Below are positions 8,910 through 60,500 of a DNA stretch of 64,000 nucleotides, one piece after another (the stretch's first letter is position 1; each line of letters opens with the position of its first letter). A program made the position numbers and the translations under genes. The notes under the pieces were generated by a model, which saw only the letters and a program-made list of their open reading frames with translations, ran no database searches and was not told where the DNA came from. The DNA comes from Tubulanus polymorphus (taxonomy: Eukaryota; Nemertea; Palaeonemertea; Tubulaniformes; Tubulanidae), in assembly GCF_964204645.1 (NCBI RefSeq), contig NC_134026.1, positions 29,096,650 through 29,160,649 on the forward strand. Direction: 5' to 3'.

Positions 8910-11900
8910 TCATAATCTCCTCATAGAGAGCAGTGAACTTGGTTTTTTATCACTAGATGATTTTGTGGTCTTCTTGCTGTGATTGTCTTTACTAAAACAT
9001 TTCCACAGTCGCAGAGTTTCATCAGCCGCAGCTGATAACACCATACTGCCATCGGGTGACATCGCTAGATGTAACACACGCGACGTGTGACCTGAAACAT
9101 ACAGATGATTAAAGCATTAGTGACTAAATGAAATGCACATAAAGCAGTGATATGTCAGTCATTACCGCTTAACTTACCAGTTAATTCTGTGACCTTCTGA
9201 AGGGATGGATATTTCCAGATGATTAGTTGATTATTTGCAAATCCATGACTAGAAACGAGTTCTCGGTGTTCCTTCGACCAAAGAATAGAACAAACCTAGA
9301 AAAACACAAGTATAAAGAAATGAATATGGCATCCATAAATCGGTGTTCTGTCAGATCGGGAAACCAAAATTCCCTGAAAATTCTCAGTGAGTTTCTTTTA
9401 TGCCACTCATCATCCCCAACTTTCTAATTCCCTGACTTTCAAGAAGTCAGAATTCCAGAATTCCCTGATTTGTAAGCTTACTACAGACGCAGTTAATGAT
9501 CGAGCAAACAAACCTGAGATTGTGTATCGACATTCTGTATATTTGTACCAGTATTACAATTCCAGAAACGAATGTGACGATCTGCTGTACCACCTCCACT
9601 CGCTAGTAAACTAGGCTGCCACGGACACCAAGCTAACGCCTGCAAAATATACACATATATATGAATGATTTAAACGAGACTGCCATCATCATATCCACTA
9701 GTATCTAGAGGTATCATAAAGCAATCAGCTGGACTGATGATATCTCTTTGGGATGTCGTCCTCACACAATGTGTAATTGTTTAACAACTAGTAAACTACC
9801 AGTAAAACAATACTGTTGGTACTGTGCTGAAAGCAAGAGACCTCTCGCTACTGACAGCAATACTTGGAATTTGGATGAATTTAAGGAAAAATCTAAGCAT
9901 TTTGATGTAATTTCAGGTTCAGAAAATATTACTCTAATCAAGAGATCAAGAGAAATATAGAAGAAGCATGAACTAATGAAGTACCTTGACTGCAGCGAGG
10001 TGATCTGTAAACACGTGTTGAGGTTGATTTTGTCCCATCGTCCAGATATTGAGTATATTATCGTTACCACCTGACGCGAGGTAACGTCCATCAGGAGACC
10101 ATCTCAAACCACATACTTCCTGAGTATGACTAGACATCGTACTGATGTGATGTTGAGCAACTCTTACGTCGTGATTATGAATATTACCACTCCGGGAACC
10201 GCTTAAAAAAAAAAACTACAATCTTAGTACGTTCAACATTCGAACTATCGGCGATGAATAATCATAAATACACTCGATAACTAACCTACTGAGAATATGA
10301 GCATTCCACGATAAAGAACCAACACGTCCTGCATGTCCCCCCATTGTTCTTAACTTCTTTGTATTGGCGACATCCCAAATCTGTAAAAACAATTCAACTG
10401 CGGTTAAACGAATAGAAGTTTGAAAGAAGTTTCAGACATTTTGCTCAAATTTCAAGTACATTTATAAGCATTTTCCATTTAGGAGTTTTTAAGGAATTGA
10501 GAAGTGGCAAGGACACCATGAAGATTATCTATTAGATTGATGAGACGGCTATCGGCTATGAAACAGCATTCCTCATTTTTACCTGGACATCATTGTTACT
10601 AGTTCCAACTGCTAAGAAATTTCCTTCTCGAATCCAACTAAGCGATGACACGTAATCTTCATTGTTATCCATAGACATGAGTTGAGTTATATCTCCACAT
10701 CCAGCGTTCCATAGGTAAACGCAATTACCTAGAGCGACTGCTAAGTGATTATTTACTGACCAGTCCAACAAATTCAAATCTATTTAAAAGAATCAATAGA
10801 AAATTAAAATCTTATCAAACTTTTTCTGCGAGGCTTTTAAGAAAAATACTGGTATTTTCTGTGTATAAGACTAGAAAAATCATTTACATTAAGGCAATAA
10901 CTTAAAATAACTTACAATAATCATCAAGTATATCAGGAGCATCAAGTATTCGTTCGGGAACCTGTGGTATGTGACGTGTAGATTTTTTAACTGTTGATTG
11001 AGGGGTTTTAGTTTGAGACGTATATAAAACTTTCATATTATTAGAACAACCTGAAAAACAATAATTATACTTCAAAACACGACTGACGATATATAATGAA
11101 AATGATTTCGTCAAAGTCGAATTTAAGCCAAAAATAGCGATGAGGTGTTGTGAAATTTAGATCCAACCATTCTCGATGTATGGAATTTATTGGAGTCAGG
11201 AAAAGCTGAGCAGCCTATTGTCCGTTATTTAATGCTCTGGGGAGGAACTTTCAAAACATTTTCCAATTATCTCTAGCACTTTAGGTTAGTCAGCACTGCT
11301 AAGAGTTTTACAAGCTTTTGAGCGAGCAACCGGCCCCAGATTTCTTACCTTCAGGAGGTTGCGGAGCTTTACTCTTGTACGATAAAATCTTATTGTTCAT
11401 TGAATCGCCGTTGAGATTATTAGACATAATTCGTTGATACATCTGTTTCGATGGACTACTCGCTTCAGGGTCGACGTTCTGTTCATTTTCCTGCTGTACG
11501 AGTTTATAATGAGCGACGTCGTAAAGTGAAGATCTACGACTCGGTATAAATCTGTCGCCGCTGTTTCCCGGAGTTTTATTCGGCGTTTTGTTTCCTTTCG
11601 ACGGTGTTTTTGAGTTTCCTAAACATAAAAACGAAGAAGCATCGATGAGTATTAGAAGCTGGTTATTACCGGTTTCTGATCCAGTTTTAGTTAAGAATTC
11701 TTTCAATGACTTAATCCCGGAGAGCCATATCCAGATATTCCCCGATTCCGGATCTGTAAGAACCCTGTTAAACACTGTCAAGTGTAAATCCAACACTAGC
11801 ACGATTATCTTGCAAACAAACCTTGTTTTCTCGGTGTTTTTGATCCGCCTGGAGTTTTATTCACGCTCATGTTATTCGACTTGACGGGACTTCTCAAGTT

Positions 11901-12056
11901 GTATCCAACGCTCGTATTATTCGCCGACATATTTAACGACGTATTAGTGGAACTTTCGTGTAGTTTTCGTTGCCATCTCATCATCGGACCTCGCGTCAAT
12001 GGAGTGTCCAATTTCAAAAGGCTGCTCATGTCATTTTCGAAGTTAAAATGTGCCAT
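8910..12056 (-). CDS. CDC20: Cell division cycle protein 20 (APC/C co-activator)
   Basis: WD40 co-activator that recruits substrates to the anaphase-promoting complex and is the target of the Mad2 checkpoint. Nine or so exons read from ATG 12054-12056 ([20 protein letters not shown]) to TGA 8910-8912. Visible elements in order: Lys/Arg-rich linker with MRWQRKL; the C-box GDRFIPSR (about 11545); a Mad2-interaction-like KIL motif (about 11395); [13 protein letters not shown]; then seven WD40 blades starting [20 protein letters not shown] and ending [14 protein letters not shown]20 is preferred over FZR1 because of the N-terminal start and the QPPEG / KVLYTSQ segment. Two departures: the site of the human KEN box reads QEN, and the C terminus reads SMRRL instead of the usual final Ile-Arg. 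It is divergent from GPX7/8 with a 0.9 kb spacer. Confidence 0.95.
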
Positions 12057-12989
12057 CTTTAATCTCGCCGATAAGCTTAATTTAGAAGAACGATGGCTTT
12101 GAGTATTGGCTACAGTTTTCCTATGAATGAGAATCAATGTAAAATAATTTTTTCAAATGAGTGATACAAATTTTAGTAAAAACAGAGATTGAAACAACAT
12201 ATACATCTCACACATACATGGTGCTAGCAGAGATTGACACTAATAATATGAATCTAGGCTACTACTGAATTTTACTCTGTGTTGACAGCAATGTTTATAA
12301 GGTGAACAATGATCTGATCAGTCATCACTTCGACTGATTTGTGCTCACAAACAATGTAATTAAAATGACACCGATTAATTTTCTATAGCAACTAATCACA
12401 CAACTAATTTCTGGTGGCGGAGCACACTACTTAACACTTTGTCTATAATAGTATAAGGCCTATCAGGACTTGCTTGATTTAGTCGGACTATCAATAAATT
12501 ACCAATTTAACAATTTTGATTACCATTGCTCTAGACCCCAAATATTGGCCTGGCAACGTAACGAACTTGAACTTGAACAGTTCCATTCTTAAGATATCGG
12601 TTTGTAAGAAATTTGTTTTGAAAGTACAAAGAAAAGGGGCCATTTATATAGGCATCATAGGACTAGGGACATTTCTGCCCTAAATATCATGAATTTAAGT
12701 AATTGCAAGATAATCGATTCATACAGAAGAATAAACAACTATTGTATAAACCATTTTTACCTTTTTGTATAATTTGTGATCTGTGAAATTCAGGATGTAA
12801 GACGATTTTTCCGTCGTCTTAAAACAATCAACAGTTTAAAATTCGCGGATCCGGAAGATTGTCGATTGGGCTCGAGTCCCGAAGCTGTCAGGTTCAAATG
12901 CTATCGGGTTCGAATCCCGCGTAGCGCAGGGATCTGCGACGTGTCAATCGTGTTTCAATCAGTTTCGATTCCCTAAAATCGCATCCAAG
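12057..12989. promoter_or_regulatory. Divergent CDC20 / GPX7-8 promoter region
   Basis: A spacer of 0.93 kb between two start codons on opposite strands, so it must hold both promoters and 5' UTRs. Near the GPX side, 12868-12882 and 12906-12920 are two palindromes resembling tRNA T-arms (the second is CGGGTTCGAATCCCG). No defined promoter element could be assigned by eye. Confidence 0.55.
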
Positions 12990-13994
12990 ATGGCCGCGCC
13001 CATGGAACATATCGGCGCTTCAAAATCTATGATGTACTTCCTTGTTTTTAGCGTTATTTTATCAATATTTGATGTGACAGTTGTTTTTGGAAACGGTGAT
13101 GAACGACTGAGGCCTGACGTCGATCCTACATCGAACCATGTAAATATTTATTCGTTTGAAGTGAGTGATATCGATGGAAATTTCATTTCGTTAGATCGTT
13201 TCAGAGGAAAGGTAAGTTGTTATTTGCTGATTGAAATGATAGATTTAAAGTTTAACTAAGTTGGGCACCGGCCCTAAGGTGAAAATTGTTGATCTAATTT
13301 TTGATAGCTCTTGGTGTATTTTAATTGTATCTGCTAGCTCTCACTTTATTTATTAAAGATTCTGATATCTTCATCATTGTTATGTTATATGTATTCCAGG
13401 TTTTGTTAATGGTTAATGTTGCGAGTGAATGCGGTTTCACTGATGGACATTATAAGGCGTTAGTTGATTTACAAAGAACTCTTGGAAAAACAGGGTCTTT
13501 TTCAGTTTTAGGGTTTCCTTGTAATCAATTTGGCGCTCAAGAACCAGGAGTAAGTACTTAGTCAAAGACATTATGATAGTTTATAATGAAGATAACATTT
13601 TAATTTTCTGTGTTGCTATTTTGTAGACAAATGAACAAATTAAAAAATTCGCTCAAATCAATTATAAGGTTAATTTCCCAATGTTTGCCAAGATTAACGT
13701 CGTAGATGGTATTACTGTAGCACCATTGTGGAAATATCTAGCTGGTTAGTCATCTTTCATCTCTTATTGGTATTCAATTCTTTCATCCACCTTTGTCCTT
13801 ATAAATTTTACTATCATTTTTCAGAAAAATCTGGAAGTGCTCCTCAGTGGAACTTTTGGAAATATCTGGTGAGTTCGGATGGTGAAGTGTTGCAAGCGTG
13901 GGGTCCTTGGAATGATTGGAATACAGAAATCATTCCCGTTATCAAAGCAGAAATTGAAAAAGACCATGTGAAACATAATCCGGATGAACTTTAG
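12990..13994 (+). CDS. GPX7/GPX8: Glutathione peroxidase 7/8-like, Cys-type, ER-targeted
   Basis: Thioredoxin-fold peroxidase of the secretory pathway; in vertebrates GPX7/8 use H2O2 to oxidise PDI. Four coding exons start at 12990, 13400, 13627 and 13826 and give about 219 residues. Residues 14-34 are a hydrophobic signal or anchor segment. The catalytic motif is VASECGF with Cys85 where other GPXs have selenocysteine. FPCNQF (Cys115) and WNFWKY follow, as in GPX7/8. There is no dimerisation loop. The C terminus HNPDEL resembles a KDEL-type ER retrieval signal. ATG 12990 has a good context (AAGATGG). An alternative in-frame Met at residue 14 would leave just the hydrophobic segment. No Sec is needed here, so the SECIS downstream belongs to the opposing SELENOP gene. 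Confidence 0.93.
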
Positions 13995-14322: not shown

Positions 14323-14616
14323 ATAAACTTAAGTTGTAAAAGGTGCGTTTGTGGTAAAACTGCTGTCATTTCTTCCACTGCCATGATAAACAAAATAGCA
14401 ATTATACATATTTTTTGTACTGGTAACATATCTTTTATGAGTTCAAAGCTAAGTTATCTACAAATCGATATGTACTTAAATGAATAGTTTGGTAATCAAG
14501 TTCTATGATAAACAACTGTGCAATACAGCTTTCCGTTTAAAAATATATCTCATTTATCATTGATAAGAAAAGAGTTCTTCAAATTCCTTCGATATTCTGA
14601 CTAACACTTTTACGTG

Positions 14617-14675
14617 GCCACAGTTCCAGTGCACCAGTCCTATACGGTTTCCCAGTGCCCTTTCATAATAGTGAC
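14617..14675 (-). promoter_or_regulatory. SECIS element candidate of SELENOP
   Basis: On the minus strand, helix I GTCAC (14675-14671) pairs with GTGGC (14621-14617). The core begins ATGA (14666-14663) and the partner strand supplies a GA in GGAAC. Helix II pairs AGGGCACTGG with CTGGTGCACT: ten positions, seven Watson-Crick pairs, two G-T wobbles and one G-A mismatch. The apical loop is GAAACCGTATAGGA with the expected AA. This fits the SECIS rule of a quartet core, a helix of about 11 bp and an AA-bearing apical loop. It lies about 0.5 kb after the SELENOP stop codon, on the right strand. Vertebrate SELENOP has two SECIS; I found only this one by eye. Confidence 0.65.
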
Positions 14676-15171
14676 ATGGGAGTAGAAGTGTACATCAGAA
14701 AATTCTCGACCATTATAGCAATTGATTTTAATGTTACAAAATAAGAAATTTTTAGAAAAAAGATTTATCAATTATTGAACACCACCTTAAAATACCTCTC
14801 ACAAATGTTCTATGATAGTTTGAATCTGCAAATTATTTAAAGATGTTATATATATTTACAAACTTGGCACAGTAGTGGTGTCCGTTAACGTGGAGAGTTT
14901 ATCTCGTGTGGTGGTAAAGATGTTCGAAAAAAGGATTCACATTAGTTTTCTATCTACAGTAATATTTACAAAAAAATGATCACAAATGTGTTGAATTCTG
15001 TTGAATACAAGGCTAGTTCCTCATTCATGTTAATGGCTTGTTTCATTAATAGCATCCGAAAGACAAAGACCTGAGGTTTTATTCATCTCACTTCATTGAT
15101 TAACAAACAAGCCACAAAATGAAAGTATTTGCTGATCATTCTATGGCATGCCTAGTTGTAAGAGATTGACT

Positions 15172-17765
15172 TTAATCCTCGCCTGGCTTTTTTAAGAGGG
15201 GGAATTGTCAGTATCATCTCTGTAGGGAATTTGACTGTCACTGTCAGCTTTTTAGCGAGCCTCCAGACTGTCACTGTCAGCTTTGTGGGGAACTTCCAGA
15301 CTGTCACTGTCAGCTCTGTAGGGAACCTCCAGACTGTCATTGTCAGCTTTGTGGGGAACCTCCAGACTGTCACTGTCAGCTTTTTAGGGAACCTCCAGAC
15401 TGTCACTGTCAGCTCTGTAGGGAGCCTCCAGACTGTCATTGTCAGCTTTGTGGGGAACCTCCAGACTGTCACTGTCAGCTTTGTAGGGAACCTCCAGACT
15501 GTCACTGTCAGCTTTGTAGGGAACCTCCAGACTGTCATTGTCAGCTTTGTGGGGAACCTCCAGACTGTCACTGTCAGCTCTGTAGGGAACCTCCAGACTG
15601 TCACTGTCAGCTCTGAAGGGAACCACCAGACTGTCATTGTCAGCTTTGTGGGGAACCTCCAGACTGTCACTGTCAGCTCTGAAGGGAACCTCCAGACTGT
15701 CACTGTCAGCTCTGAAGGGAACCACCAGACTGTCATTGTCAGCTTTGTGGGGAACCTCCAGACTGTCACTGTCAGCTCTGAAGGGAACCTCCAGACTGTC
15801 ACTGTCAGCTCTGAAGGGAACCACCAGACTGTCATTGTCAGCTTTGTGGGGAACCTCCAGACTGTCACTGTCAGCTTTGTAGGGAACCTCCAGACTGTCA
15901 CTGTCAGCTCTGTAGGGAACCTCCAGACTGTCACTGTCAGCTCTGAAGGGAACCACCAGACTGTCATTGTCAGCTTTGTGGGGAACCTCCAGACTGTCAC
16001 TGTCAGCTCTGTAGGGAACCTCCAGACTGTCACTGTCAGCTCTGAAGGGAACCACCAGACTGTCATTGTCAGCTTTGTGGGGAACCTCCAGACTGTCACT
16101 GTCAGCTCTGTAGGGAACCTCCAGACTGTCACTGTCAGCTCTGAAGGGAACCACCAGACTGTCATTGTCAGCTTTGTGGGGAACCTCCAGACTGTCACTG
16201 TCAGCTTTGTATGGAACCTCCAGACTGTCACTGTCAGCTCTGTAGGGAGCCTCCAGACTGTCATTGTCAGCTTTGTGGGGAACCTCCAGACTGTCACTGT
16301 CAGCTTTGTAGGGAACCTCCAGACTGTCACTGTCAGCTTTGTAGGGAACCTCCAGACTGTCACTGTCAGCGCTGAAGGGAACCTCCAGACTGTCACTGTC
16401 AGCTCTGTAGGGAACCACCAGACTGTCATTTTCAGCTCTCTTCTGACTGTCATCCACTCTCTATTGAAAGTTGATGTCCATTTTCCAGATGTTTACAATG
16501 TCAGGAATCAGTGATATTGGGTTTGACATTATTACAGACGCAAGAATGGGTCGGTGTACGTGGTACCAAACCTTGACATGTACAAGAGTTTTCTAGCTGA
16601 GAAACTGATAATTTACACTTACAATGCTGTCCAGTATTATTGCGAATGCTATGACAGCTACAGTAATTTGAAGTATATGACAGTTTAGGGCAAAAGCACT
16701 CTCTTACTGAAAGACTGTGTTTATGGTGACACCTACATTTACTGACTAATGATACCATATTAGTAACTGTGTGTGCTAGGTATAAATGTGGACAATGACA
16801 TCGATATGGTTTCCTTAATGGCACGATCGGAGTACATGAACATTTATCTAATATCTCTTGGTTTGGGTTGTGACATCTACATGTTCGTTGTCATTTCTGC
16901 GGTACTACCTGAAGATGATGGCGATGGGCCCTTTTAGATCTTCTGCGTTGACTTGAGCCGCGCTACAAATACATAACAGATTTTTTCTCCTGAAGAACAT
17001 ACCGGATAGAACAAGCAAAATCAAAATCAAATTCTAAAATCTACCTCACTACAACGTATCCCACACAGGTTTCTGTGACGGTATGTGTATCTGATAGCAT
17101 TCCGTACATAGTTTAAATGTAACCAACTCCCTGGATATCGTATGTGATAAGTAAGGCGACCACATCTGAAAACCAAGCACAGATTTTCAATCTCTGATAT
17201 GATTATGAGTTAGTGTTTATTTGTTGTTTTTATGAGTGGCTGTTGTATAGATACTTACCGATCATAAATCAAGAAGTCGTCCTTTTGTCCACCAATTATG
17301 TTCCAAATGTTATTTTCAGGTGTGGCCTGGTATGTAGGCATACGTGTCCTTTTTTGTAACCGTCCAAACTGTTGGCGAGCATGATTTAGTGGGGAATTGA
17401 TGATGATAAATTTGATATCATTGGCTCCTCGAGATACATAGAATCTTCTCAAGTGTTCGAACCTGAATAAAGGAATGCGCGATGTTAGGTCGAAATCAAT
17501 ATCCCTATACAAAATTAGATTAAGTTCACTTTATTAGAGTGAGATAGGAAAGCAATTTTTACCTGGAAGCTTGAGTAAGACAAAACCCTCAACTAGCCTG
17601 CATCAGAGCTAGCACTACGACATGTCCTTTATGCTCTGCCATAGGATTGACATTATCAACTGACCAATTATCAGGTGGATGACAGAGCTGAGAACCAGCA
17701 GCACTTTCCACAGAACCAGCAGCCAGGATCAGACTGATCACCAACAGGTAACCCGCCTTCACCAT
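15172..17765 (-). CDS. SELENOP: Selenoprotein P with about 80 in-frame UGA (Sec) codons
   Basis: Secreted selenium-carrier protein. Exons: 17563-17765, 17259-17462, 17045-17165, 15172-16962, total 2319 nt (772 residues plus TAA at 15172-15174). ATG at 17765-17763 gives signal peptide MVKAGYLLVISLILAAG. The thioredoxin-like domain shows SQLCHPPDNW, VVVLALMQAS, then UGA at 17591-17589 in the context U-G-F-C (redox U-x-x-C, residue 59), and KDDFLIYDRCGRL. After a basic His-bearing linker comes a region with nine C-x-C pairs, then S-U-H-C (16501), then a tail of about 37 eleven-residue modules S-G-G-S-(L/P)-Q-S-U-Q-U-Q. In-frame UGAs: 17589, 16891, 16501, 16450, 74 in the repeats, 15214 and 15208 (low coordinates). 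No TAA or TAG interrupts the frame. Standard gene callers would truncate it at residue 58. Mollusc SELENOPs with very many UGAs are known; the minisatellite basis seen here is direct observation. Confidence 0.93.
15234..16440. repeat. 33-bp coding minisatellite, about 37 units, 99-bp higher order
   Basis: Units of exactly 33 bp run from 15234 to 16422 (36 full units) with a diverged 37th to about 16440. Because 33 is a multiple of three, several frames on both strands stay open, giving spurious ORFs of over 350 codons. Units fall into types distinguished by CATTG/CACTG, TTTG/TCTG, GTGGG/GTAGG/GAAGG and CCTCC/CCACC. Between units 10 and 29 they follow an a-b-c order with a 99-bp period, once extended to four units. 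The array is the Sec-rich tail of SELENOP. Confidence 0.97.
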
Positions 17766-18541
17766 GACTGTGGCAAGGGACAAGCCCTAAAAATACCATA
17801 CAATCCTCATCAAAATACTTCATTTCGATTTCATATTATTGAAAATTCTGTAATAGTCTTAAATATGTCGACATATCCCATATGAAACTTGACAATCATC
17901 ACTTACCTTTTGAGTGGAGGTATTTCAATTAGAACGCCTCAGTTTTACAATTTTTCAATCTACACGTACTGAACTAGTAGATCCTTTTTGAAATGGTTCT
18001 TGTGTTCAAATGATTTTATACAGTGCCTCGACAGTCAACTTTGTTCCTGATCTAGATTGCAAATAGACTTTAGACTAATCACCTGATCTTACAGGATATA
18101 TGCAGTGCTAGTGCAATTGTTTTCAAGTTTCGTGACCCGATGAAATTGCGCAAGAAGTATTCAAGCCTTTAATAGGGTGCAGGCCAAGTCATTATATTAG
18201 TTCATTCCTTTTACTTTGATTTCTAAGAATTAAAGAGTCTTGTGGAATGTTTACCAATCTTGGGTCTCAATCATTGCACCTCGATCCATTTTACATAGTT
18301 TGAGTCATTAAACCATTTCTCCGAGACAAGATTCAAAACGGAATGATTCAAACAAACGAAGGAAATATCACATAAAAATAAATTTATTGGCAAAATTGGC
18401 CGGTAATAATAATATCATCAATATTTTACACGATTTTGTTCTGATGATATTTATCTAACAAGTATTATACAATACGATTACAGTACAATATATCATTTAT
18501 TCATTACATTATCAACAACAGAAATATAGCATTCACAAATA

Positions 18542-20311: not shown

Positions 20312-23300
20312 TCATGAAGGTGTTTTATTTTCAGGCTGATGTGGCACATCCTACAAAATAAATAAAATATTCCGTTAGAGAAATTGCTTTTTCAAGCAGA
20401 AAAGTTTTTTTCTGATTAATCATAGTTTGGTTTCCATTCAGTTGTAAAAATCAGTCATGTGAATCATTTCAAATCTCGATCATTTTAGGGGAAATCGTGT
20501 GAAAAGAATTTTATATACAGAGTAAATGATTTCTCGCATATTGAATATTATTAGGGATGGTTTTTTTGTTGTTACCTGAACCAAGTAACTTAGAAGTTTC
20601 AGATGCATTCTTTTCCTAAATTCATATATACAGGTTTATATATTACATGTATTGAGTGAAAAAACCCCTCAGAAATGTACTCGCACACATCGAAATATCT
20701 TACCTTCATTTCCTTTCCTTGTGTTTCTATGGGTAGTAACATGGCTGCTATTGCAGCTATCAATGCAATAGCTCCATAAGTACTGACAGCTAATGATGGA
20801 GATGAAGTCAACATGACTTGAGCGACAAATGGCGTTACTATTGCTCCAATTCGAGCCATTCCACTACATGTACCGAGTCCTAAAGCTCGCATTGTTGTAG
20901 GATAAACCTGTCATAGAGGATAAATAATCATCGGTCATGATCGCAATTAGATACTGTATGTTAAACCTGAATCTAATGAGTCTACTTACCTCTGGAGTGT
21001 AAACATAAGCAGCTTGGAATGCTCCAGATATAAATGCTCTTGCCACAAATATAAAAAATGTCAGTAGGGGACTGAAAAACAACACGATCCCATCATTACA
21101 TCATATACTGGTGGTATACAAATGGGTATTATACATTTTCGAAATCGACATACCGATTTGTGCAGAGATTTAGTAGAAACACGAAAAAAGAAAACACGAC
21201 AAATTCACCCGCCATTGTTTTCTTACGTCCCAGTTTTTCTATAACAGCTGCAGTAATGAACAAACCTAAAAATAGAAATGGGATTAATAGAAATTCGGTG
21301 ACGCCGTAAAGCAGGATCATGATTCATGAATAACTGGAATAACTTAAAAAGATAAAATACCAGGGAATTCTGCAACAGATGTCCACAATAAATCTGTGTA
21401 ATCCTTAGTAGATAACATTTTACAGTCTAACAGACAAGCGAGTTCTACCTTACCACTATCTCCAGTTCCCCCTGAAAATATAAGTTTGATTAAAAATCTT
21501 AATGAATTATATTAGCAAACTAGAAGGGGAAACATCGAGTTAAGTTTTCAGAACACAGTTTCATAAAAACCATTGATTTAAGATAAACTGAACTTAATGA
21601 GGAAACTAAATCTAGATTTAAGAGGTAAACCTGTTTGTCACACTGGATCCTGATGCCATAAACCAAAATAGCAGTTTAAATTGAAATAAAGGATCGAAAT
21701 TCATTCGAAAGGGGTAAAGATGGTCGTGTTAAAGAAAAGAATCGTAAGATTAAGTACAGAACTCGTTACCCAGATCCTCATTCATGCTTCAAATAAAACA
21801 AATGCCACATTAGTTCTACATCATAAGTCGATCTCAAATGAGGAAAAGGGTTGTTACAAATAACTCGAGATCTCCTTCAATAGAATTTCTATAGTAGGGA
21901 TAAAAGGAACTGAAATATGCAGTTTACTAGAATGATAACCGTTCCTCCATTTCATATAACTTGGGGTGGTGGTTGTTTAATTTACCCTTTTTATTAGATC
22001 CACCTAGAATCGAGCAAAATCAAAGCATCCACAATGAATTGTATGACTGATGATTATTTCAATACAAGATAAAAATGTAACTTCGAGTAAATTGACAAAC
22101 AAAATGAAATTCTTCTTGTATATGGATAGTAACATTTACCGTGACATTTATCCCCGGTTTCAAATAATTCCGTTGTCATTAAAACAATGCCATAGTATGA
22201 AAATGCACACGCCAACCTGGAACATAATAAATGATAATCAATTGAATCTAAATAAGCAGTTAAATATGGCGCACGTATAAATGTCACATACCAGATAACC
22301 CATAGAATAATTGTAGTCTTCCTCAAGTCGATCGAAAATAAATCTTTTAATTGGCCACGTTTTACATTCTATTGAAAAAAAAAGAAAAATTTGTGATTTA
22401 GTAAACAGTAACTAGAAAATATATGAGGGATTTTAGTTGGTATTCTGGGTCCAGTTCCACAGTTCTGAGTTAAGATTTAACTCAGAGTTAACTCTTGAAA
22501 ATGAACTAACTTTAACTCAGAGTTAACTCTAACTCACAACTGTGGAAGTGGGTCCTGTTGATTCCACTGATTTCAACCACAATGACGCCTCATCATTGCT
22601 TGTAAGCAGAGTTCGTAGTCACAGAAACAGCACGCACTGTTTCAGACTAATACTTCAAATTTCCATTATCTTTGTCACCAGTGGAAACACGTTTGATAAT
22701 AATGTTACGCAGCTATCAGTTATCGTACCTCTTCTGTAACTTTAGGAATGTTATAAATTAGACGACCTTGGGGCATTGGTTTTCCATTTTCTTTCGCTAT
22801 TCTTTCTAGGGTTGCTAATGCTTTTTCTGGATGTCCCCGCGCAATATCGAAACGAGCACTTTCCGGAAGCCACTGATAAAAAATAAATCATTCATCAGGA
22901 ATGAAACGGAACAAATTTCATAATTTGAGGGTTAATGCCATCGGGTATATGCTTACCACGCAGAAGGCGGCAAATATAAGTAGAGGTATAGCAGATAATC
23001 CTAGTAGATATCTCCAGCCTAAATGTGGCATAACTAGTAATGCCAATAACGTCTCAAAAACAGCTCCTAATGCCCAAAATATCTATATTGAATATAGAAA
23101 GGTTACGTTGTTATTACAGTTTTTTCATCATATTACAGAAATCGATAATACTCCGGAAATGTTTAGATAATGAAAATGATTTATTGATTATTGGGGGATA
23201 ATTCTGTTGGGTAGACTCTTAATTACCTCGATCATAACAACAGCCTTTGCTCTGATCGCTGTGGGTAGGAATTCTGCATATAGCGTTACCCTGAAAAATA

Positions 23301-26300
23301 TGTTAAAATAAAGATAAAAACCATACGTTGCAATAAATACCAAAGCTGTATTAAAATCAAAATTGTCAAGATCATATTCAGGGCCATCCGGCATAATCTT
23401 ATGATTACTTTTTGATATTGATTATTGTCATATCATATCATATCATATCAATCATATCATATCATATCATATCATATCATATCATATCATATCAATCATA
23501 TCAATCATATCAATCATATCATATCATATCATATCATATCATATCATATCATATCATATCATATCATATCATATCATCATCTTTATTTTCCTTTACAATT
23601 TCAGTTACATATAATGTTAAATCACACGACATGTCAAACAGAAGGCTCACATTTTTAGACCACAGTGTCCGTCCGGCTCCCCTACAATTCCTAGATCCAA
23701 CCCTACTATTGCTGGCAGTTACCCCTTTTTCATGAAATTTAATGACATCAGGATTTTATATTTGAAGTCAAATCGAAATGAGAAAATTGAGTGTTTTATG
23801 ACATAATTTGAAAATCAAATTGCCAAGAGTTCAATGAATATTGTAGAATCAGTGACAGCTGCAAAGATACTTTCATACTTTCATACACGGGCACTGTTCA
23901 TACGGAACACCTATTCAAATACTTACGCCTGTGGAGCACCACCAACTCCAAAGCCGACTAAACCTCGCAGAACTAAAAGCCAAACGAAAGTTGGTGAAAC
24001 GGCGCTGAGTATTCCGAAATAAAATGTGAACAGTGACGATAGAAGCAATGCCTGAAATTGAAAACATCTACTGAAAATATCACATTCATTTTCATCTCTA
24101 TCTAAGCAATTTATCCATATTTCTGTTGGTAGATTTAACAAAGCTCATTTGAAATCAGTCATGCGTTAATTTCAATGGAGTTTACTGTAGCTGAAAGCTA
24201 CTGACATTAATAACTCTTTATGTTCGCTAAACTAGCGACTAAACGATGTCATTCGAGTTTGATCTCAGTATTCAGTAACCAGTAATAATACATACTGCAC
24301 GCCGACCATACTTGTCACATATACTGCCCCAAATACTAGAGCTTAACATCATTCCGCAAAACACAATCTACAAACACGAGCGAAGCAATTAGAGTCGATA
24401 GTTATTAATGATTTAATTGATTTAATAACTTTTGTTAGATATCGACGAGAACGTACAGTAGTCGTAAATGCTTGTTGCCAACTCGGGATACCCCAGTCAC
24501 AGTGTAACGCTGGTGATAGTATACTCAATATCATCATCTCCATTGCATCTGCCATCTAACAAAAACACATCATTTACTAATAACATCACCTAAATCAACA
24601 GGCCAAATATCATAAATGTTTTATGCAACAGATACTAAATGCTGTAGTATGCAGCAGACTAATAGATGAAATACTGTCAAAATTTCATATGAATTTTTGA
24701 TGTCATCCATATTCCACGCTCATGGGCTTCACTAACATATACATGGTCGTAATACCATTTTAAATAAAATATAATTTGGTACACACACTGCCGAAAAGCT
24801 TAGTCTCACGGTTCATACAGTTATACAAATTCAAAATTCTAACAGTTTTTTTTAACAATTTTCCGCAAAAATGTCTAGATACCATCATATTACATGGATT
24901 CTTATCTTAATGGCGACTGGTTGACGGCTGATTATCAAAAAAATGGCTGTTGAAAGTTACCCCTGGCAATTGCTAGGTTAAGAGTAAAATTAACTTCTCC
25001 GACTATTTCCCGCATTAGAGGAGAATATATATCAATTTCCACGGATATATCAGTTCAGAATTCCCAAGTTTTTCCAGATTTCACATGAGAACATCATGTT
25101 AGTCTGCATAGGAGTCACAGAGGCATAAAATACGGCGAAAAGTGAGTATAGATTTTGAAAGCTGGACGTTGTCCTGATGAGGACATGTGAACAGACAGAT
25201 CTCAAAGACATCTCACTAGTATCCTACTAAACTAGTTATGTATATATATATATATATATATATATAGCGATGATCCTGTTGATCGTGACGATCACCATGG
25301 TTACGGTTCATTAATACTGCGAACGTTTGCAAAGTTGACATTTTGACCAAAATTGAAATATTCATCGATCTTCACTGCAGGCGTAAGATTTACAGTCCAG
25401 TAAATTGTCAAATTGACCATCAGTGCAAATCTATTCATTAATGAATGTCCTATTGTCAGTTTCAACCATTAATCGATATGCCGATATACACTAACACCGC
25501 TACTAGTAGTACCACATCACGGCCAGGGCTACGGGCAGAATAGTCTATGGTTTCATATATATTATCAGAGTCTGATACAGTGGAACCTCATTACAACAAA
25601 CTTCAGCAGACCAGTGTTCGTGATATCCAGTATAAAATGTATCAAAATCGTTCTATTCGGGATGAAATTCTTCATTTTTAAAAGCCGATAAATCGTTACA
25701 TTCAAGGTAATAATAACAAGGTTCCGCCGTATGAATTTATTATCAGGTTAGATAAGACTGAAATAAAATATTCAATGTCAAGGATTGCCCTGATTTCCCA
25801 CTGATAACTTTAAAAGAAATAGATGTCTACAGATTTTAAGGAAATTTACACCTATCAATTTCTACCCATTTCTGATAAAACAAATTACTTGGATATGAAA
25901 GGCCAATGAAACACTCTGTGTTGACAGAATTAACTTCCATCAAACTTGTTAGGAAATTTTAGAAATATTTGTTAAATCAAAAAGAAATTCGGTGTTTTGA
26001 CAAATCATGACAGTTCCATTTTCCCGTGATCGAAGTCAACGCCAATCTTATTATTAGGGCATAAATGACGTCGTCAAATGCTTAAACAATAAATAGTTTT
26101 ATGTTTTTAATGCTGGGGAACGTTTCACATTCTTTCTACCCATCATTCAATCAGCAACCATACTGGTCGTCATGGCAACTGAATCACGACAAAGATGACT
26201 GAAGTAAAGGTTGTTGTAGGCATCTCGAAAATATTCAATCTCCTTTAAGCGTCGTACACCACAATCAAATTCATACGACTAATTAAAATGATGCTCTGTA

Positions 26301-54594: not shown

Positions 54595-57500
54595 TTAATC
54601 ATTTTTCTTTTCTTCCTTCCTCTTCACGTCATTCTTCGTGGTCGCGTTTTGTTCGGGTTCCGGTTTGTTGCGTTGTACCGCTCGTTTCAGCGCGTCCCAC
54701 ATTCCGCCCATGAATATCGCGCAGAACAGATTTTCGAACGGCACGAACGGGTCGTGGATGCCGAGCAGTAACGACGATAATCGGAAATAGATGAGGAACA
54801 TCGCGATTCCGAAGTAAATCAACACGTGCGGAGCCGTCAGAAACTTCTCTCGTTCGCAGATGAACACAATCGAACTCAACAGACTCGCTTTCGTCACACT
54901 GAAAAATTAAATCAAACACCGATTGAAATTCATTCCTTTCAAATTGCTACCGATCATTTCAGTTTTCTAACAAATTTGCTTAAATCGGATTTTGGATTTA
55001 AGTTTGATTATGAATATTCTTTAATAGCAATTTTTCAACAAAATTATTTACCCGGTATAGGTTAACTGATTGTATAGAAGAGTATAATATAGCGTACTAG
55101 CGGTATGTCAGATTTGGAATGCTGTAAACAGCAGTTTCACAGCTCTTAGAGATACATGCCTACCTCCGGTACATCATTATACGCGTTACATTAAAATCAG
55201 AAGTGCAGTTTTATTAATGCAGGAGAAATAAAAGTAGTATTTGTCTAGACTAGCTAACATTGGTAACAACGGATTGCTGCACTTGAGATTATCATTCAAG
55301 CACTACTCTATGCACTACAAAATTACTAGGAATGAACAACTAAAACATGAAGTTGAAATTAGTATGTGCGCACACCTAAAAGCTTATCGGACAAAAATAA
55401 CAGCAAAGCGATTGAAAATGAAACATCAACATGACACTCAACAAGAGGCTTTCGATCATTCGGGTGATTTTAGACCCGGGTAAAGAAAAACTAACAGTTC
55501 TAACAAATAAATTCAACAGAACACACCGCTAAACATGAAACTGAAATGAAAAGTTTGTTCGATACAAACATGCGGTGGTTTTCAATTACTTACAAAGATG
55601 GTTGTAAGAACTCATTCGAGCTAGGAATCCACAAACCTCGAATGATACGTTCTACAATTCTCATTTCAGTATATCCAGAGCCTAAAACAACCGAATTATT
55701 ACAAATCTCATTACAATTTAAACTACTTACTTTCATAAACCCTACTGTCACCTTGTCACACCACTCTCTCTGTTGTTATGATAGCCAATTTTTATATTTA
55801 TAAAACATGCATAGTTCAATAGCAGTTGTATGTTCACAATGCATACAACTCTATTCACTAGGAAATCCAGAACGGGCATGTTTTACTAATGGGTTTTTCA
55901 ATGTAGATTTGTTATTGTTTACTAGGAATTCATAAACGGGCAAGTTTTGGCTTTGCGGTCATTTAATGTTGTTTGCCTTTGTTACTAGTTCAGTTTATGT
56001 CTCGGATTAATAAGAAATATTTTGGAGTTAGTTTTCAAGACAATAGAAAAATCCTAAGGGATTAGTCAAGTGTCAACGTCTACGTGTTTGGAAACCGAGA
56101 CAACTCCGGGCTTGTTTCTTAACCAGGTTGCTAAGAACATTAATTCTTGGGGGCCTGGTGGGCGAATCAGGTCCCGAGGTTAGTCGTCGGCCCTCCCCAA
56201 ATGCGGTGGCGTTGGTCACGAGAATAGTCCCTTGGAAACCAAATTTTGGATAGTATAAAAATAAGAGACATAGCTGAACTAGTCGGAGAGCACCTGGGAA
56301 ACCAAGAGGGGAAGGAACTAGAACCCGAAATTGTAAAAGGTGTCGATAAATAGGAAAGACGAAAGTAACATAATAAATAGTTGTGAGTATTTATATTCGA
56401 AGTATTTGCATCTTAGTCGTTTATTCATTTTTGGTCTCGGGTCAAATTCAATTTGTGTCGTTGTGCGGAGCTGAGGAAGGATACGCTCTCCCACGATATT
56501 TCGGTTCCTTCTTCGGGCCGCATAACAGATTTGGTGCCGAAACCCGGGACCTTTAGTTATTTTTTTATTCAGTCAGATAGTTAGATAAGATTATTTACTT
56601 AAAGTTTACAGAAGGGTTAATTGTTTATTAGAGAATGAGTATTTTGATTAATTAGTGATTATGGTATAGCGATTTATTATTTTAATTGATGATTTAATTA
56701 GGAATTGAATTCTAATTACTACTGGTTTGATATAAATTATTTTTTAGTTTATTTTTTATTGATATGGGTAGCTATATGCACCGCAATAGAAAGTTTTTAA
56801 AAATACATTTAGTTACCTATTGTGGTGATATTTTGATATATGTCACCGAGGTTGTCGCTCGGTACTGAGTATTTTATTAATTAAAGGTTTAGGTAGTACG
56901 AAGAGTTGAACAGTCAAGATAATGTTCCGATGCTGATGGAAAATTCCAGTATTTTGGAATAATTAAATAGTTAACGATAGATTCCAATGTTGATGTGATA
57001 TTCCAATATTGATGGTGATATTCCAGTATTGACGGGAAATTCCGATACTGAGGAGAAGGGATATGGTTTAAATGAAATCCAATATCGATGATTTTGTTTC
57101 CGATATTGAGGGTATAGTGTTGATAACTGATATCAGTACTGAGTTATAGATTAAGATATAGTATTTTCGGTAGTAAAGCTACGCGAAATAATTTACGATA
57201 GTGTAGATATCGATCCCATATTGGGGATAATAGGTTTATAGAAAGGTTTATAAGAATCTGTGTCGAAACTGTAATTGCATAGATTTTGAATTGCAGCCAC
57301 TATTAGCGTTGCGGTCATTTTTAGGAACGCTCTGTTTTAATATTCTGTTTTACTCTGTTTTTTTATACTTTCTTTTCTCCGAGTTAATTAATAGTTCAAT
57401 ATGCCGCCACCGAGTACTAGGAGTCAGACGGCTCATGAGGATATTGACGACCCGCAGAGCCCGACAGCGGGGGCTGGTTCGTCGACGGGGACGAGCATGT

Positions 57501-60500
57501 CAGAACGAGATATACTCCTCCTGATCGCCGAACGACTAGGTAGTTCGACAAACCTTGGGGATGTGGTTTCCATCCCGAAATTTTCAGGTAGACCAAACGG
57601 GAGTGACTTTTCGCAATGGTTGCGAACGTATGACAATGTAGCTAAAGCGAGAGGTTGGACGGACGACCAATGTAAAAATTTCATGTTCCAATATTTAGAG
57701 GGTCCGGCTAGACGGTTCTATGACGATTTAGTCATAGATCGATCTACAAAATTTGCTAGTATTGTTAATTCTTTTAGGGACCACTTTGAGTCGGACAGTC
57801 TGCGACTCCGAGAGGAGACTGACTTCTCCGGACTTCGGCAGAAGAAAGGGGAGTCAGTCGATGATTATTCGGAGCGAGTGGACCGACTGGCTCACAAATT
57901 ACAAAAATCGGACCGAGACAAATTGGTCGTCTTTCTCAACGGGCTGGACAATGCGATCAGGAAGGACGTGATGATGATGAGGCCCGACACGTTTTCAATG
58001 GCAGTCGAGCACGCGAGGACTGCCGAGCAGTGGACTGATCGAGATCTGACGAAACCGACAGTGAACCAGACCTCCCCAACTGATGCGTCACTCCTCAAGA
58101 CCATGGAGGAGATAAAAGGAATGTTCTCTCAGTTCTTACGGCTGAGAGAGCCTAGTGACAGGGGTGAGAGGCAAGCACAGAGGCCTATGAGAGGTGATCG
58201 ACGGGGGGACACGTTCATTCGACAATCCCCAGGTCGAAATCGCAGCGCCCCTCGATGGCAAGATGCGAGACCTCGTTACGACCAAAACCCACGCTTTGAG
58301 CCCCGACGTTCTTACCCGGCTAGGAGAGAAAGAAATCTCGCGGGGCACAATAATTGTTTCAGGTGTGGTCAACCGGGTCATTTTGGGAAGTTCTGTCCAT
58401 ATACGCCAGATACGGGTCGACAGTACGGATACAGAGAGCCACAAGAGGGGAGGATATATCCGCGGTCGCCACAACACCCGCCGCCACAACACCCGCTGCC
58501 ACCCATGCAGGGTCAAAGGGGAGATCAACAGCAGCCGGGAAATGGTTTCGGTCGTCACCAGCAGGATGGCGCGATGACGGCCTCAATGTACCCAGTTATC
58601 CCCGGCCATCCAATGTATCCCTACGAGACCAACGAGCTCTATTAAGAACACCTCATGACAGGCCACTCACACACCCAGTCACCATCGAACGACAATTCAC
58701 CCAGCCTTTGCCTGAGGAGAGAGTGAGGGACCCTCAAGGGTCACTGAGAGGACGTACTCCGACAGACAAGGAGATAGACCGTCCGTTGCCGACTAGAGGT
58801 TTCGACAAACAAAGGACGTCTGGCGACAAGCATTACACGCCACCTATTCTTGCATCCGTGGCTAACCGTGTAACGGGTACCCATGCGGGAAATACATTGT
58901 CCGTTTTGGTCGATACCGGTGCTGAAATAAGCGTCCTGAATGAGGCCTGGTATCGCCAAAACCCATCAATAGCCGTGGGTCCCGTGATGCAGGGTCAGTT
59001 CATGGAGGCAAGAGCGGTGGATGGTAAGACATTTGAGTTGAAAGGCGTTGTGCCCACAAATTTTAAAATTGGTGAGTATGACGTTCGTCACGCTATGTAC
59101 TTGGTCCCAGGAATCGATACTCATATTATTTTAGGTTCCGACTTTTTGCGCTCTAACAACGCAAGTATTAATTACGGATCGAATTTTCTCAAGCTACCGG
59201 GAGCAAGTCCAATTCATTTTACTAACAAGATAGATTTAAATAAAACAACTTCGGTTCAAAGCACGACCAATCCAATTATTCCACCTATTTCTGAAAAGAT
59301 TGTCGATGCACATTGTTCACAGGCCCTAGTCGAAAAAATTAACAGCAAAAAGGCTGTATATGAATTTTCACACCAGTTACGTGAAAGGAAAGTCGTGGGT
59401 GCCACGGCTGCAATATCAATTTCATCGATTAATATTCACGCAAGTTCTACTAATCTCACACCACGGTTCGTTAATATTCACGAAAGGTCATATTTAGGGC
59501 CACATAGATTAGATCATGCGAATCCGGAATCGCCACTGTTCCGGGAATGGAGGCTGTATCATCGGGTACGCCCTCCCGAAAATCGTTGTGGAAGAATAAT
59601 CGGTAAAAGGCTCGACAGGTTAGAGTTACTGAAAGTTGAGGAAGAAAACTCTGCCTGACAAAAGATGACGACTATTTTTAAGTGACGAGCGACGAGACAT
59701 TTCTTAATGGATAAATTTTGATTCGAAATAATTGAATGATTATTTTGAAGCTTATGATTGATTGAGATCGTTTCATTTTTTTCGCGGTCACATTTTTAAT
59801 TTAGCAATGAACTAACGTAAACACAGGTCGCTTGGATGTAACCATTTCTTTATTTCGCCTACTGATGACAATAACAATAACAGATAATTCAACATTCCGC
59901 TGCCAATTCTATCGCTGATATGAGAATGGATTTTTTTAATGGCTAACACACACTATGGCTTGAATTGTTTCCTTAACCCATGACAATTGAGTATTAAACG
60001 CGTTCTTAACAGGTATTTTAATGAAATCACTTACTGGAAATGTGGATACCCGGTGTTGGTAAATGATACGATTGTTGGAAAGGCCGATGCAGCCGACGTA
60101 GATTCGTTGAGCTGGAAATGCATGAAAATAAGATGTTATTGCATACAAGTTGATAATATTTTGAGGTTAAATTGATTGAATTAATTGTGGAAAACTATGC
60201 TATTATTATGTTAAAAAAAATTAAAAAAAAAAAACTCTCTTGCTAGGGAAATGGAATGATATTCAAACGAACTATGTTAGGAGAAAATATGTTGTTCAAA
60301 AAGAATGTGTTACACAATAATATGTTGGTTGAGCGAATGATGGGAAAATTTATCTTCATTATCCGTAAGATAAACATAAGATGTTCTTCGTGATTCATGA
60401 ATTGAGTGGTTGAAATACGTGCTATATTTTCGGTATATCTATATCTATATATATATAAGAAAAATTCCTAAATATTATAATGAGGGATATTTTGAATGAT

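Follow-up and report, generated by a model that had tools for sequence, protein, structure and literature searches.

In vertebrates, selenium is transported in the blood by selenoprotein P (SELENOP). The human and mouse genes contain 10 UGA codons each (PMC5133445). According to a review (PMC8744743, citing Baclaocos et al., 2019), SELENOP is particularly rich in selenocysteine (Sec) in lineages that include annelids, ribbon worms (Nemertea), and molluscs, and the protein of the bivalve Elliptio complanata contains 133 Sec residues. In another paper (PMC8230778) the oyster protein is given 46 Sec residues, after Baclaocos et al. (2019), and that of one bivalve 132, after a different reference. 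The title of the 2019 study (J Mol Biol 431:4381), as it stands in the reference lists of PMC12822975 and PMC10875847, puts the number of UGAs in mollusc SELENOP at up to 132.

The gene described here was found in a 64-kb window, which is the whole stretch of DNA that was analysed, from the ribbon worm Tubulanus polymorphus. It occupies positions 15172-17765 on the minus strand and consists of four coding exons (Table 1). Joined, these exons form a frame of 772 codons that contains exactly 80 TGA, has no internal TAA or TAG, and is closed by a TAA at 15174-15172. The initial annotation had proposed four minus-strand exons, a single 772-residue frame free of TAA and TAG before 15172, and 80 in-frame UGA codons; re-joining the exons and recounting reproduced each of these figures exactly, and the 80-UGA frame is thus confirmed as an observation. 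The introns between the coding exons are 100, 93, and 82 bp long, and all three have GT-AG borders. The splice sites were set by GT-AG together with the reading frame, the gene model being built from the genomic sequence alone. The predicted composition is dominated by Ser (142 residues), Gln (127), Gly (89), and Sec (80).

Table 1. Positions of the SELENOP features and of the neighbouring glutathione peroxidase gene in the 64-kb window.
Feature	Position	Strand	Description and basis
GPX7-like glutathione peroxidase	about 12990-13994	+	Pfam GSHPx, 8.3e-37; beyond the SELENOP 3' end, convergent
SECIS 2 candidate	14617..14675	-	AUGA ... AAA apical ... GGAA; 3' UTR
SECIS 1 candidate	15045..15104	-	AUGA ... 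AAA apical ... GGAU; 3' UTR, 67 nt after the stop codon
Coding exon 4	15172..16962	-	Basic/His stretch, nine C-x-C motifs, UGA-rich tail, TAA; 79 of 80 TGA
Coding minisatellite	15233..16437	-	33-bp period, 36.5 copies, 91% matches; Tandem Repeats Finder
Coding exon 3	17045..17165	-	121 nt; CGRL... to ...CGIRCSE; exon join, alignment
Coding exon 2	17259..17462	-	204 nt; terminal residues DDFLIYDR; exon join
UGA1	17591-17589	-	CDS nt 175-177, residue 59, in coding exon 1
Coding exon 1	17563..17765	-	203 nt; signal-peptide-like start (by eye), redox motif U59-x-x-C; exon join, vertebrate SELENOP alignment
Predicted 5' UTR intron	17787..17906	-	GTAAGT...TTTTTAG; by eye, inferred

An intron is also predicted in the 5' UTR. 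Seven ATGs are found between position 18100 and the start codon, and since all of them, as judged by eye, lie inside this intron, no leader ORF is predicted in the mature mRNA. The oyster gene reportedly has an upstream leader ORF; a similar element was considered for the mature leader of the T. polymorphus gene and rejected. A TATAAAA sequence is seen by eye at 18020-18014, upstream of the start codon.

The gene very probably encodes the SELENOP of T. polymorphus, with a multi-UGA tail that would be read as Sec. When residues 1-355 were scanned against Pfam, residues 24-194 matched SelP_N (PF04592) with E=1.4e-46 and 159 bits, the cut-off being 23.2, and this match takes in exons 1-3 from residue 24 onward. 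Of 620 candidates in a database search limited to proteins of about 195-621 amino acids, 27 matched at E<=1e-3. Every one of the 27 carries SelP_N, and none is longer than 381 residues; 24 are from vertebrates. The best is a Xenopus SELENOP-Pb (E=3.3e-39), with 45% identity in an alignment that covers 46% of the query. A search for full-length homologues, in which residues 1-345 were scored against 978 candidates of 425-1351 amino acids, gave no match at E<=1e-3, and neither length range yielded a match from a named invertebrate. The identity suggested by the initial annotation is thereby borne out, and the U-x-x-C redox landmark that it had pointed to is present as U59-G-F-C62 at the conserved place.

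The first 176 residues were aligned with seven of the 27 relatives. Forty columns are invariant in these eight sequences, including KDDFLIYDRCGRL, and so is C62 of the redox motif. The UGA1 column holds Cys in five of the relatives and Trp in two, as the database writes them. The two SELENOP-like proteins with Trp at this site, P0019 and P0022 (ASWQFC and ASWYLC), may be cases where UGA has been mis-called as Trp. Of the 80 TGA codons 79 are found in the last exon, which places multiple in-frame UGAs in the C-terminal part, as expected of a SELENOP. The start of the protein is hydrophobic and signal-peptide-like when judged by eye. No match to Pfam SelP_C (PF04593) was obtained at E<=0.01 in residues 1-355, i.e. 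the region before the repeat array; this domain is absent also from 26 of the 27 database relatives, and a SelP_C match is not defining for SELENOP. Among solved structures the single match, a weak one (E=0.013), was with a putative thiol-disulfide oxidoreductase.

UGA1 occupies CDS nt 175-177 and exon 1 extends to nt 203, so that the first coding intron starts 26 nt after UGA1. In vertebrate SELENOP genes a conserved exon-intron junction is located 26 nt 3' of UGA1, the spacing is highly conserved, and the intron has been called ancestral to the vertebrate SELENOP duplication (PMC5133445). The first Sec of mouse SELENOP is residue 59 of the precursor (PMC5133445), which is also where the first UGA stands in T. 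polymorphus. An intron at the same 26-nt position in a nemertean points to a far more ancient origin. If it is inherited and not coincidental, it would be older than the protostome-deuterostome split, and such an age would bear on the idea that this intron aids decoding of UGA1 (PMC5133445). RNA structure around UGA1 was looked for in eight windows, none of which was significant (z from -0.17 to 0.69); the 48 nt after UGA1 ranked 42 of 350 for structure. RNA structure around UGA1 has reportedly been found in the oyster SELENOP.

Decoding of UGA as selenocysteine requires a SECIS, and the two SECIS-like elements found after the stop codon, on which the initial annotation was silent, are candidates for this signal. 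Both are on the coding strand, no more than 560 nt beyond the stop. They share the same layout: AUGA, a single unpaired base, a helix of 10 steps (nine of them paired), and an apical part of 14 nt in which AAA follows after one base. The 3' side has GGAU in SECIS 1 and GGAA in SECIS 2. The Rfam model SECIS_1 aligned to both over all 64 positions. SECIS 1 scored 24.6 bits, with E=0.17 in a 4.8-kb scan and E=0.0049 in a 141-nt scan, and SECIS 2 scored 17.4 bits (E=0.45 in 141 nt), the gathering score being 35. Neither was listed in Rfam scans of the whole window, and SECIS 2 was missing from the 4.8-kb scan too.

A scan by pairing rules, devised after both candidates were known so that its ranking is not blind, gave SECIS 2 a score of 19, the highest in the window on either strand. 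SECIS 1 scored 15, a value equalled or exceeded at six other sites in the window. The rest of the window, 125,600 nt-strands, held these six matches of at least 15 and none of at least 19. When the 572-nt stretch concerned was shuffled 1000 times, 30 shuffles had any score of at least 15, one had two or more such scores, and four had a score of at least 19. An initial scan by free folding had found neither candidate and one weak unrelated site, and folding with flanks did not return the structure of the SECIS model as the minimum. We regard SECIS 1 as a probable and SECIS 2 as a likely SECIS element. An AATAAA is present at 15083 on the minus strand, within SECIS 1, and would cut the element if used as poly(A) signal. 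The next AATAAA on this strand is at 13354, with one-base variants between, for instance at 14558 and 14439.

Exon 4 contains nine C-x-C motifs, at residues 204-319, spaced by 12-14 residues apart from one spacing of 21. These are followed by one U-x-C (residue 330) and then by 38 U-x-U motifs. This order along the exon suggests that a C-x-C module was turned into U-x-U by a third-base change (TGT or TGC to TGA) and then amplified. Most of the UGAs lie in a coding minisatellite, in which 36 in-register units encode QSGGS[L/P/I]QSUQU; changes to R, K, or S occur in a few units. The units hold 72 TGA codons, all of which are unchanged. The base following UGA is C in 77 of the 80 cases, and G after UGA1. 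A following C is known to weaken termination. RNA structure was also looked for in 12 three-unit pieces of the array, and no consistent signal appeared (z from -3.2 to +1.1, three pieces below -2.2).

The array is homogenised, with 12 distinct units among the 36. Since units three apart, i.e. 99 bp, are the most alike (mean 1.3 differences, 15 of 33 pairs identical; adjacent units, mean 2.94 differences, 2 of 35 pairs identical), the array seems to have been amplified in 99-bp steps at least in part. In the favoured reading the tail grew through tandem duplications of 33 and 99 bp. The 2019 study by Baclaocos and colleagues is said to have described growth of the mollusc SELENOP tail by modular expansion. 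The sequence comes from one window of one assembly, and near-identical units of 33 bp are error-prone, so that the array might in part be an artefact of assembly or of alleles; the gene would still be a Sec-rich SELENOP, with a true number of units that differs from 36. This is unlikely, as the units fall into 12 types, their similarity is ordered by distance, and the frame stays intact throughout, an outcome that mis-assembly at random would not favour.

The window contains 462 frames of at least 60 codons free of TAA and TAG. The exon 4 frame has 79 TGA, and the next best has 13. A simple repeat at 23289-23755 on the minus strand has short TGA-rich frames that hold 13 and 10 TGA. Density of TGA alone is thus not proof, because repeats can yield TGA-rich frames without coding. 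Openness and TGA count are also weak evidence within the array, because its 33-bp period keeps any stop-free frame open; other minus-strand frames across it are open as well, for 446 and 358 amino acids. The same period has as a by-product a stop-free antisense frame of 450 amino acids at 15162-16514 on the plus strand, which a gene caller could mistake for a gene. In the 178 codons of exon 4 that precede the array, TAA and TAG are absent from the UGA frame and occur 8 and 16 times in the other two, and an open stretch of this length has P=1.8e-4 by composition.

Substitutions within the array point the same way. Departures from the unit consensus over the 36 units comprise 47 synonymous and 16 non-synonymous changes in the UGA frame, a crude N/S ratio of 0.085. 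The ratio in the other five frames ranges from 0.154, in a plus-strand frame that is the next best, to 6.2, the two other minus-strand frames having 6.2 and 1.6. Distinct changes were also counted, because array units copy one another. Six of 11 change types are synonymous in the UGA frame, which gives P=0.012 (best of six frames, uncorrected) and makes it the only one of the six with P < 0.05. None of the distinct changes falls at a TGA site (P=0.067). With homogenisation allowed for, the substitution test gives modest support; it is supportive, not overwhelming.

If the locus is transcribed and its UGAs are decoded, the product would be a secreted SELENOP in three parts: an N-terminal thioredoxin-like domain with the U-x-x-C of UGA1, regularly spaced C-x-C motifs in the middle, and 36 QSGGSxQSUQU modules as the tail. 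By analogy with vertebrates, UGA1 would act as a slow checkpoint; once past it, ribosomes would decode the other 79 UGAs at almost full efficiency as far as the TAA. As many as 80 selenium atoms would be present in such a product and account for about 7.5% of its mass; without signal peptide the full protein is calculated to about 83.5 kDa with a selenium content of about 7.6%. The most likely function would be that of a selenium carrier or store, or a transporter, and a role of the tail in oxidant protection or in metal binding by U-x-U is possible. For 50% of the ribosomes past UGA1 to complete the protein, each of the 79 UGAs must be read with a calculated efficiency of 99.1%, while completion by 10% needs 97.1%.

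A tentative reading, to which we give somewhat less than an even chance, is that the minisatellite sets the selenium load of the protein: changes of 33 or 99 bp would shift the number of Sec residues by two or six, alleles and individual worms would differ accordingly, and up to 79 successive UGAs would be read at about 97-99% each. If true, the variable number of tandem repeats would be a direct genetic dial for the transport of a trace element and a natural test of the limits of UGA redefinition. The near-identical units place 72 UGAs in two nearly constant contexts within one mRNA, which makes the array useful for measuring processivity.

A short SELENOP could instead be the main product, with most ribosomes stopping at UGA1 or UGA2 and the array being mostly an untranslated by-product of repeat growth whose distal UGAs are little used. 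If each UGA were read at 90%, just 0.02% of the ribosomes past UGA1 would finish, and at 95%, 1.7%; homogenisation to 12 distinct units means that the open frame has perhaps not been long under selection, and mouse plasma holds shorter as well as longer forms of SELENOP (PMC5133445). However, changes in the UGA frame are mostly synonymous with all 72 array TGAs intact, and the frame runs past the array to a TAA that is followed by the SECIS-like elements. Baclaocos and colleagues reportedly showed in 2019 full-length translation of the oyster SELENOP with its 46 UGAs. Taken together, this makes a short main product very improbable.

There is hardly any chance that the minisatellite is non-coding and its TGA-rich frame arose accidentally beside other open frames, as might be argued from the 33-bp period, the TGA-rich repeat near 23.3-23.75 kb, and the low N/S ratio of one plus-strand frame (0.154). 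The array belongs in frame to the last exon of a SELENOP gene, which is where known SELENOPs have their Sec tail. In this exon C-x-C motifs at intervals of 12-14 residues are succeeded by the U-x-U motifs of the array at intervals of 11. No other frame of the six has an N/S ratio as low as that of the UGA frame, and in none of the others is the distinct-change P below 0.05.

The multi-UGA gene thus preferred has probably been lost by automatic annotation. SELENOP of T. polymorphus was absent from the 27 database matches at about 195-621 amino acids, and the search at 425-1351 amino acids gave none, which is consistent with the earlier view that annotation missed the gene. The neighbouring GPX7-like protein, its coding sequence joined by hand, matches the database record 'glutathione peroxidase 7-like [Tubulanus polymorphus]' at 100% identity along the whole query. 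This match identifies the species, a palaeonemertean, and a mollusc origin of the DNA was rejected on its account. The protein's next match is from the freshwater mussel Sinanodonta woodiana (63%), and the other 119 matches listed, of 7974, have at most 63% identity. Its presumed active site contains Cys and not Sec (ASEC, by eye). Elsewhere in the window, minus-strand frames at 11308-12152 resemble by eye the N-terminal part of CDC20/Fizzy and have no Pfam match, and exons upstream of SELENOP at 20.3-24.5 kb on the minus strand look by eye like those of an MFS/SV2-type transporter. Gag and protease of a Ty3-type retrotransposon are found at 57395-59658 on the plus strand (Pfam Retrotrans_gag and gag-asp_proteas).

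Neither the number of UGAs nor a Sec-rich SELENOP in Nemertea is new, since the extreme has already been described in print for molluscs and ribbon worms (PMC8744743). No publication on the SELENOP of T. polymorphus was among those listed in literature searches, and the 2019 survey may include the species. The closest described systems resemble the gene in different respects. Mollusc SELENOPs share the very long Sec-rich tail, but belong to another phylum and have up to 132 UGAs (133 Sec residues in the review) compared to 80 here. The ribbon-worm and annelid proteins share the high Sec content, the former also the phylum, and the passage that mentions them names no nemertean species, count, or sequence (PMC8744743). 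Vertebrate SELENOP and SELENOP-Pb have in common with the T. polymorphus gene the SelP_N domain, the place of the redox site, and the intron 26 nt after UGA1, and their two SECIS elements would correspond to the two candidates found here. They differ in that the human and mouse genes have 10 UGAs and not 80, and in that the ribbon-worm protein gave no SelP_C match in residues 1-355 and has as its tail an array of an 11-residue module. What the locus adds is a named species, a gene model with two SECIS candidates, the 26-nt intron position, and the strikingly regular coding minisatellite, which gives a palaeonemertean an extreme and very regular multi-UGA tail.
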